A DNA stretch of 64,000 bases, from contig NZ_JAMHIV010000033.1 of assembly GCF_023897065.1 (NCBI RefSeq), positions 1-64,000 of the forward strand, in the 5' to 3' direction. The position numbers were made by a program, and so were the translations under genes. The DNA is from Crossiella sp. SN42. GTDB taxonomy: Bacteria; Actinomycetota; Actinomycetes; Mycobacteriales; Pseudonocardiaceae. Within the stretch, counting starts at the first letter, position 1. Each line of letters begins with the position of its first letter. Positions 1,693 to 4,180 of the stretch are shown here, piece after piece. The notes beneath the pieces are model-generated. The model was not told where the DNA came from, ran no database searches, and saw only the letters and a program-made list of their open reading frames with translations.

Positions 1693-1842
1693 CTCTCGTC
1701 TTCTCCGTACGGCCTGGAGACTGCTGACCGCGCCTCCCCGCCCGGCCCCTGCAACCTGCCGCCGCCCGGCCTGCCCAACGTGACGGGGGCCGGGCGGGGA
1801 GGTGTGGTTTGCTGTCGGAAGGTCGTGCGGAGAAGACGAGAG
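1693..1842. repeat. Large imperfect hairpin H1
   Basis: Inverted repeat with 57-base arms (1693-1749 and 1786-1842) matching at 47 of 57 positions. The terminal 15 bp and the inner 17 bp are perfect. The loop is 36 bases. It is the first of three consecutive large hairpins in the gap between the divergent SDR and glycosidase genes, a gap of about 810 bp with no credible coding sequence. Confidence 0.85.
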
Positions 1843-1934
1843 GGTCGCGAGCACGCTGGAACCGGCCCCGGCAGCCTGCTCAACCCCGCAACCTGCTTGT
1901 CCCGGCTTTTGACTTGTCCCACCCCTCCGGGGGC

Positions 1935-2013
1935 CTGCCCGTCCGGCGAGGACAATCTTTTCGCTTTTAAAGAAGAAGAAGAAGAAGAAGAAGTGTCCTC
2001 GCCGGACGGGCAG
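1935..2013. repeat. Hairpin H2 with an AAG tract in its loop
   Basis: Perfect 20-bp arms, CTGCCCGTCCGGCGAGGACA at 1935-1954 and its complement at 1994-2013. The 39-base loop contains eight AAG triplets (1970-1993), a strongly purine-biased tract in an otherwise GC-rich chromosome. Weaker, indel-containing complementarity continues outward to roughly 1890 and 2060, so this may be the surviving core of a longer palindrome. Confidence 0.85.
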
Positions 2014-2112
2014 ACCATCAAAGCAGGGGGGAGGATCAAAGGCGGCGAGATGAGTTGCAGACAAGTGCGAGTTTGTGTTGGCGCGCTTGCAGCGGCGTGG
2101 GTGGTTCCGCGG

Positions 2113-2266
2113 GGTCTGGGTGGTTCTGCTTCGACGGCCTTCCAAAACCAAACCAGCCCTGTCAAGCGCCCCAGTGCCAGCCTCCGGTGCGGTTGGCGGG
2201 GTGGGTGGGGCGCTTGACAGGGCTGGTGTGTTTTTTCCAGGCCGTCGAAGCAGAACCACCCAGACC
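2113..2266. repeat. Large two-stage hairpin H3
   Basis: Two nested perfect stems. The outer arms are 28 bp (2113-2140 and 2239-2266) and the inner arms 20 bp (2153-2172 and 2207-2226), separated by short mismatched bulges, with a 34-base apical loop that can fold further. The total footprint is 154 bp. It ends about 50 bp before the glycosidase promoter. No transposase or obvious target duplication flanks it. Confidence 0.88.

Positions 2267-2395: not shown

Positions 2396-4180
<1,785 letters not shown>

Follow-up and report, generated by a model that had tools for sequence, protein, structure and literature searches.

A dispersed repeat of long, opposed hairpins in Crossiella with a REPIN-like layout

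The window (the whole stretch of DNA that was analysed, 64,000 nucleotides long) belongs to contig C27 of a 9.7-Mb draft genome of Crossiella, here G000. Near its left end two genes point away from each other across a spacer that holds three long hairpins, H1, H2 and H3. The features of the locus, in window coordinates, are as follows.

628-1584, - strand: left neighbour, a short-chain dehydrogenase/reductase (Pfam PF00106), its start codon (read from the sequence) towards the element
1655-2309, no strand assigned: whole element with its blurred edges, the stretch that two other Crossiella genomes lack at this locus
1669-1683, + strand: left end, short palindrome GGGGTGAAAACCCAC, from the rows of aligned copies
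1692-1843, + strand: hairpin H1, from inverted-repeat search, folding and covariation
1692-1715 / 1820-1843, + strand: outer 24-bp stem of H1
1716-1718 / 1817-1819, + strand: unpaired GGA / GGA of H1, followed by the inner stem
1935-2013, no strand assigned: hairpin H2, with perfect 20-bp arms CTGCCCGTCCGGCGAGGACA at 1935-1954 / 1994-2013 and a variable loop, here of AAG repeats
2113-2266, - strand: hairpin H3, type A, from inverted-repeat search and folding
2113-2140 / 2239-2266: outer 28-bp stem of H3
2141-2143 and 2236-2238: TCC / TCC of H3 on the + strand, i.e., GGA / GGA on the - strand
2152-2173 / 2206-2227: inner 22-bp stem of H3
2267-2297 (approximate), no strand assigned: right end of type A elements, CGGCCGCTCCGTTTGCGATCAAAAGC, common to type A copies, after which the sequences diverge
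2396-4180, + strand: right neighbour, a glycoside hydrolase family 2 protein (Pfam PF02837, PF02836), its start codon (read from the sequence) towards the element

The three long inverted repeats that a preliminary description had placed in this spacer were recovered by an inverted-repeat search, with arms at 1687-1749/1786-1848 for H1 (63 nt, 81%), 1900-1954/1994-2048 for the H2 region (55 nt, 71%) and 2113-2173/2206-2266 for H3 (61 nt, 92%). The perfect 20-bp arms of H2 and its (AAG)8 loop are present as described, and the perfect stems of H3 are borne out by the fold, as 28 bp and 22 bp. Among the copies aligned, only that of the window has the long AAG run, the others having other loops. 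Minimum free energies on the + strand are -127.2 (H1), -52.4 (H2) and -127.1 (H3) kcal/mol, and for five segment/strand folds the z-scores lie between -14.5 and -8.4, none of 200 dinucleotide shuffles equalling the fold in any of them, so the hairpins fold far beyond chance. Rfam 15 gave no match in the window at gathering score (at E up to 1 there were 14 matches, all to microRNA models and none reaching its own gathering score). A plasmid or phage origin was set aside, with no match in the plasmid or phage collection, as was a coding function: long frames cross the spacer in this GC-rich DNA, but the loop indels differ between copies.

The preliminary description had proposed searching related genomes and the rest of the chromosome, and this search revealed dispersed copies. 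When the 671-bp stretch was compared with its own genome, five copies (window included) spanned H1 to H3, and 13 further copies matched H1 and H2 or most of that part; wherever the contig continues and the copy is not shortened, these 13 have a third hairpin of a second kind, type B. An anchor pattern from the H1 arm (≤1 mismatch) has 21 sites in G000 and as many in G060, a single-contig genome of the same species; G002 has 37 and G001 has 10, and none occur in the remaining Crossiella genome compared, G003, in which a whole-element DNA search was likewise made; the reversed control pattern has no sites. These are the four genomes with the anchor among the 150 searched of the family, and an exact-pattern scan of named genomes, one that may omit near relatives of the window genome, gave Crossiella sp. 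S99.2 as the sole carrier of the H1 arm, with 10 stretches. The anchor undercounts, as longer copies that lack it exist (at least four in G060 and at least six in G002); 89 anchored copies were kept after one duplicate had been dropped. The element is a dispersed non-coding repeat of Crossiella, and positions ~1655-2309 of the window are one copy of it.

At the window locus, the two divergent genes are present in both G002 and G001, and the element is not. In G002 the left flank matches the window up to 1654 and the right flank from 2310, the two directly abutting, and in G001 the matches end at 1643 and resume at 2324, 37 bp lying in between. A second locus, with the 3′ end of an aconitase-like gene (named by reading its sequence) on one side and the stop codon of another gene on the other, has the element in G000, a damaged copy in G060 and none in G002 or G001. 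The element therefore comes and goes. Otherwise, at short range, the positions of copies hold steady: for 19 of the 21 copies in G000 a G060 copy has the same left flank, a twentieth (L024) has a damaged counterpart there, and 7 of the 10 G001 copies share their left flank with a G002 copy, G060 and G002 having merely a handful of copies at common positions.

Intact copies are ~630 bp long, with outer hairpins of ~150 nt each. They run in the order GGGGTGAAAACCCAC or a variant of it, H1, H2 and H3, type B copies then ending in GTTTGAAAAGCCA[CG]CCC or a variant. The alignment of full copies other than the window's begins at ~1662-1685 and stops at ~2291-2297, the exact ends being blurred; in most of the 89 rows by far (by eye, uncounted), GGGGTGAAAACCCAC or a close variant immediately precedes H1 on its left side, and left of this palindrome the sequence varies from locus to locus. 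Within the hairpins, H1 read on the + strand and H3 read on the - strand share a GGA/GGA internal loop (GGCCTGGA..GGAAGG), which is unpaired, 3 × 3 and nearly invariant. In the consensus lines H1 (+) and type B H3 (-) follow a common plan of outer stem, GGA/GGA, inner stem and a terminal loop with GCAACCTGCCGCCGCC, the loop of H1 being ~40 nt long; the type A H3 of the window shares with H1 the GGA/GGA region and its neighbours alone. The preliminary description had held that the hairpins share no sequence and are not copies of one element, merely alike in architecture. For H1 and H3 this is wrong, as they have the GGA/GGA loop in common and, in type B, the inner stem and terminal loop as well. 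On their shared plan, H1 and H3, both asymmetric hairpins, are inverted homologues around H2.

Several copies depart from this layout. In L025 (3360-4700, on G000 contig C13) a copy is interrupted at its H2 core by an insertion sequence, IS30-like by reading, whose 412-aa frame has HTH_38 and rve domains. L027 is a short derivative in which the left arm of H1 is fused to the right arm of a type B H3 in one hairpin, and its ortholog L083 is short as well, probably through deletion between the two hairpins. Many copies of G002 (L135-L171) and G001 (L055-L064) have GTTGGCCGTTGTNGTACGG-like units outside the element on the left and the inverse on the right, units seen in just a few G000 and G060 rows, and at L035 of G003, a genome with no H1 anchor, other inverted sequences flank a core palindrome resembling H2. 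Copies or pieces also lie at or near contig ends of G000 (C12, C13, C21, C31, C33, C40, C50, C58), which suggests that the palindromes of the element break assemblies.

The preliminary description had explained the hairpins, among other ways, as non-autonomous transposons with a transposase elsewhere. Part of this stands, in that the element is a dispersed repeat with empty sites; no transposase was linked to it. A MITE-like transposon dependent on a DDE or other non-Y1 transposase acting in trans, its long hairpins being elaborated subterminal repeats, would account for the empty sites at the window and aconitase loci, for the inverted arrangement of H1 and H3, and for the inverted outer end motifs of a few copies. 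Yet we consider it improbable: a constant terminal inverted repeat was not found (the outer motif CCGGGGCTCGCGACCAG, with ≤4 substitutions, occurs on both sides in 1 of 89 copies), a target-site duplication is unreadable at the empty sites because the flanks have diverged, a search that covered the Y1 family saw no transposase with such ends, and the insertion sequence of L025 merely interrupts a copy.

Pairing is kept while the sequence changes, as the preliminary description had led one to expect. The H1 alignment comprises 65 sequences (58 distinct), G000 copies except the window's and also the window ortholog L081 having been excluded as near-duplicates, and 3 of the remaining 68 dropped for want of a recognisable right arm. 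Over 49 pairs, 99.6% of cells are paired, 16 pairs have changed on both sides, and there are 212 double-change cells vs. 63.2 in shuffles (0/500 as high). The H3 alignment is limited to 48 type B sequences (40 distinct; type A and truncated copies excluded), and its 48 pairs are 99.7% paired, with 15 double-changed vs. 12.2 in shuffles (2/500 as high) and 192 double-change cells vs. 63.3 (0/500 as high). One measure runs against covariation in type B H3, namely the number of further pair types (29 vs. 31.1 in shuffles, 490/500 as high). When partners are slid, pairing in the H1 and H3 alignments falls to 32-50%. These figures are for structures derived from the same alignments, and, since sequence passes between copies, individual cells do not count as independent events. 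Orthologous copies, in which the preliminary description had proposed looking for compensatory change, display it: between G000 and G060 at the same loci, 624 stem pairs of H1 are unchanged, 41 have changed on both sides and still pair, 16 have changed on one side and still pair, and 5 are broken, with unpaired positions differing at 137 of 742. These counts are for 14 of the 16 locus pairs compared; in each of the two left out, one member falls outside the fixed register, with 23 and 24 of 49 pairs formed, probably through a length difference.

The stems are also polarized by strand. In an alignment that scores all mismatches equally, and with G000 and G060 as near-duplicates, the ratio of G·T to A·C on the + strand of H1 is 77:2 in G000, 101:1 in G060, 210:4 in G002 and 34:4 in G001 (pooled over the 68 copies of G060, G002 and G001, 345:9). 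For H3 the same ratio on the + strand is 1:10 in G000, 0:18 in G060 and 19:113 in G002 (none scored in G001), i.e., the wobbles lie on the - strand, and for H2 it is 19:12, 25:18, 14:12 and 5:2 in G000, G060, G002 and G001, respectively. This excess of G·T on opposite strands suggests that the fold favoured is that of the + strand in H1 and that of the - strand in H3. Such polarity fits the RNA of convergent transcripts and equally fits single-stranded DNA hairpins handled strand by strand.

Gene context, taken from our own codon-based gene caller and hence approximate, places the copies singly in intergenic gaps, mostly 3′ of genes. Counted as convergent, -|-, +|+ and divergent, the contexts are 10/8/2/1 in G060 (21 copies), 21/11/4/1 in G002 (37 copies), 6/3/0/0 in G001 (1 of 10 copies without a right gene call) and 6/6/3/1 in G000 (5 of 21 copies being cut by a contig end). 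The divergent setting given in the preliminary description is true of the window copy and exceptional for the family, the single divergent copy of G060 being at the same locus and G002 having one. The right-hand gene reads into the element in 18/21 copies of G060, 32/37 of G002 and 9/9 called of G001.

The main rival to the interpretation given below makes the element a 3′-end RNA element. Each outer hairpin would fold within the RNA coming in on its own side and block read-through or be cut by RNase III, insulating neighbouring, often convergent genes, and the element would have spread as something useful or harmless. Wobbles on the + strand in H1 and on the - strand in H3, with GGA/GGA unpaired on those same strands, speak for it, as do the right-hand genes reading in (59 of 67 called among the 68 copies of G060, G002 and G001) and the convergent pairs (10/21, 21/37 and 6/10 in G060, G002 and G001). 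Compensatory evolution biased to wobbles is also reported of Bacillus cereus terminators in excerpts of PMC5381666. Other observations weigh on the opposite side. Terminators with a U-tract (scan loops of 3-8 nt) number 0 at 1500-2500 on both strands vs. 1.5 in shuffles, and no T-run follows the H1 or H3 arms by eye. At the aconitase locus the neighbouring gene has a native terminator-like hairpin beside the element, present at the empty site too. The window copy itself lies between divergent genes. Finally, pairing and wobble bias in H1 are independent of whether the left gene runs in: G·T to A·C is 188:5 in 37 convergent and 108:2 in 22 -|- copies, the same bias whichever way that gene runs, which argues mildly against a transcript. 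A structured-RNA role, as listed in the preliminary description, is possible given the wobble asymmetry, and we regard the 3′-end RNA account as a whole as rather unlikely.

Orientation relative to replication was assessed with the origin placed from dnaA and the terminus assumed opposite. Anchored copies point against the fork in 20/21 cases in G060 (p = 2e-5) and 27/37 in G002 (p = 0.008), as could be expected if the fork dictated the orientation of a site serving replication or chromosome architecture. Once longer unanchored copies among the matches listed are included, the bias weakens to 21/25 (p = 0.0009) and 30/43 (p = 0.014), and within convergent pairs alone it is 9/10 and 15/21. Orientation goes with the direction of the right-hand gene, few positions are common to G060 and G002, and the core motif is unbiased in three genomes of another genus, g26 (14/24, 13/25 and 24/42), on which ground a general replication orientation was rejected. 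A fork-set architecture site is thus a very improbable account. The nucleoid or recombination site of the preliminary description is a weak proposal: in its favour is an orientation bias in two Crossiella genomes, one absent for the core motif in g26. We take the bias as a lead specific to Crossiella and do not count it among the properties that define the element.

Copies within a genome evolve in concert. At five loci shared by G060 and G002, compared over ~300 bp from the start of H1, the G060 element is 80-82% identical to its G002 ortholog and 79-84% to the average G002 copy, while its paralogs in its own genome average 86-92%, above the ortholog at 5/5 loci. Among 10 of the 19 G000/G060 pairs, the elements are 90-94% identical and the flanks 92-99.5%; the element falls below both flanks in 9/10 of these pairs, and in 9/10 the best G060 match of the G000 element is a paralog. 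Gene conversion between copies would be the simplest cause; repeated loss and re-insertion at one site would give the same pattern of similarity. Template-switch repair of quasi-palindromes produces simultaneous block changes on the two arms, which would speak for an origin of the hairpins by that route. Nevertheless, chance or recurrent palindrome formation by template switching, with no selection, is scarcely credible beside the dispersed copies, the nearly invariant unpaired loop and the asymmetric use of wobbles, which already contradict it.

The central palindrome reaches beyond Crossiella. The H2 arm of G000, CTGCCCGTCCGGCGAGGACA, occurs (≤1 mismatch) in 45 of 397 genomes of the order, the reversed control giving none; it is plentiful in G000 (35 sites) and in 4 of the 6 g26 genomes drawn (21-41 sites; the other two have 2 and 0) and sparse elsewhere, where single matches may be chance and some lie in coding sequence (L098 and L109 look coding). 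Four g26 genomes (G090, G137, G153, G169) hold cousin elements in which the same 20-nt core is set among other inverted repeats. In the cousins read, the core appears once in the ~420 nt around it, not as a palindrome, and is preceded by those other repeats; a T-rich stretch often comes after it, usually TCTTTTGATCTTT in g26. All 29 exact cousin sites examined are intergenic by our own gene caller. Of these 29 loci, 26 have a called right-hand gene, and in 23 of them it runs into the element; a reading of the cousins as one-sided terminators directed toward the core found no support, the left gene running toward the core in 10/24 called loci.

We think it probable, with some reserve, that the element is a giant dispersed composite palindromic repeat, similar to REPINs and BIMEs, homogenised by recombination and folding as a single strand. 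Its layout is that of a REPIN or BIME because the inverted imperfect palindromes are dispersed, mostly 3′ of genes, and have GT-tolerant stems, and beside this layout the MITE and terminator readings are weaker. New copies would arise seldom, through insertion beside stop codons and terminators; recombination between them (gene conversion) would then keep them alike, moving whole stem blocks; and each outer hairpin would act as a folded single strand of one polarity, H1 on + and H3 on -. That polarity is how a REPIN-processing enzyme would recognise single-stranded DNA, or it may reflect folding in the transcript from the hairpin's own side.

Measured against the definition of a REPIN, two homologous imperfect palindromes in inverted orientation are present (clearly for type B H3, and for type A in the GGA/GGA region only), as is intergenic dispersal mostly between convergent or unidirectional ORFs (divergent in 1/21 copies of G060, 1/37 of G002 and 0/9 called of G001). 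The element works like a REPIN yet is not filed as one, because the foot tag and Y1/RAYT both fail. By eye, no GTAG/CGTC tag stands at the feet of H1 or H3 in the window or the aligned copies; CGTC lies within the outer stem of H1 and, in many type B copies, ~25-30 nt past H3 (CCCGTCGCTGG), and GTAG lies in the small left-end palindrome of some G002 copies. A search for Y1 (PF01797, E 0.001) gave no match in G000, G060, G003, G137, G169 or G090, and mobilisation by Y1 was rejected on its absence from G000, G060 and G003; elsewhere G002 has one match, with an internal stop, and G001 three, one of which (L183) adjoins a second, TnpB-like frame by reading, with no H1-like arm by eye in the 3.2 kb read. 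The sharing of flanks by most G000 and G001 copies with G060 and G002, respectively, would also count against the REPIN-like interpretation, in that recent movement is not seen, as would hairpins several times larger than REPs and a copy number in the tens for each genome.

A bolder version of the REPIN-like interpretation, which we offer tentatively, is that these are a new class of giant actinobacterial REPIN-like elements, spread by some hairpin-processing system other than Y1/RAYT, with two opposed 150-nt hairpins that each work on their own strand only and a core that recurs, in other genera of the family, within cousins of a different build. RAYT transposases are the usual explanation of small bacterial palindromic repeats, and a large, well-preserved family with strand-specific structure and concerted evolution, in a genome in which no RAYT was found, asks what else copies or maintains such repeats. 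Compensatory change in long hairpins can also be followed here in tens of naturally replicated copies.

No description of the Crossiella element appeared among the matches listed in the open-licence PMC literature, going by titles and the beginnings of abstracts. Its orientation bias recalls the lagging-strand targeting of IS200/IS605-type elements, whose single-stranded DNA hairpins are recognised on one strand (excerpts of PMC6006769), but G000 and G060 have no Y1 match, and H1 and H3 are opposite in strand polarity. Like MITEs it is short, non-coding and dispersed, with empty sites; unlike them it has no constant terminal inverted repeat or target duplication that could be found, and its conserved part is the internal hairpins. 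With bidirectional intrinsic terminators it shares GC-rich hairpins between gene ends and wobble-biased compensatory change (the latter as in the portion of PMC5381666 consulted), whereas it has no U-tract, is far larger, forms one dispersed repeat family and adjoins a native terminator-like hairpin at the one locus examined. REPs measure 20-40 bp and lie mainly between convergent and unidirectional ORFs, and their frequent GT pairing is taken as a sign of transcription (both from passages of PMC3733652, in whose text the terms Actinobacteria, Actinomycet and Streptomyces are absent). In contrast to these, the Crossiella hairpins are ~150 nt and the intact elements ~630 bp with a third, central palindrome; and unlike REPs and REPINs with TnpA_REP (RAYT), the element has no foot tag and no Y1 match in its host, numbers tens of copies and belongs to an actinobacterium. 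What it has in common with REPs, REPINs and BIMEs, as these are portrayed in extracts of PMC3733652 and PMC3116915, is imperfect palindromes in inverted pairs, an intergenic position, GT-tolerant stems and many copies.
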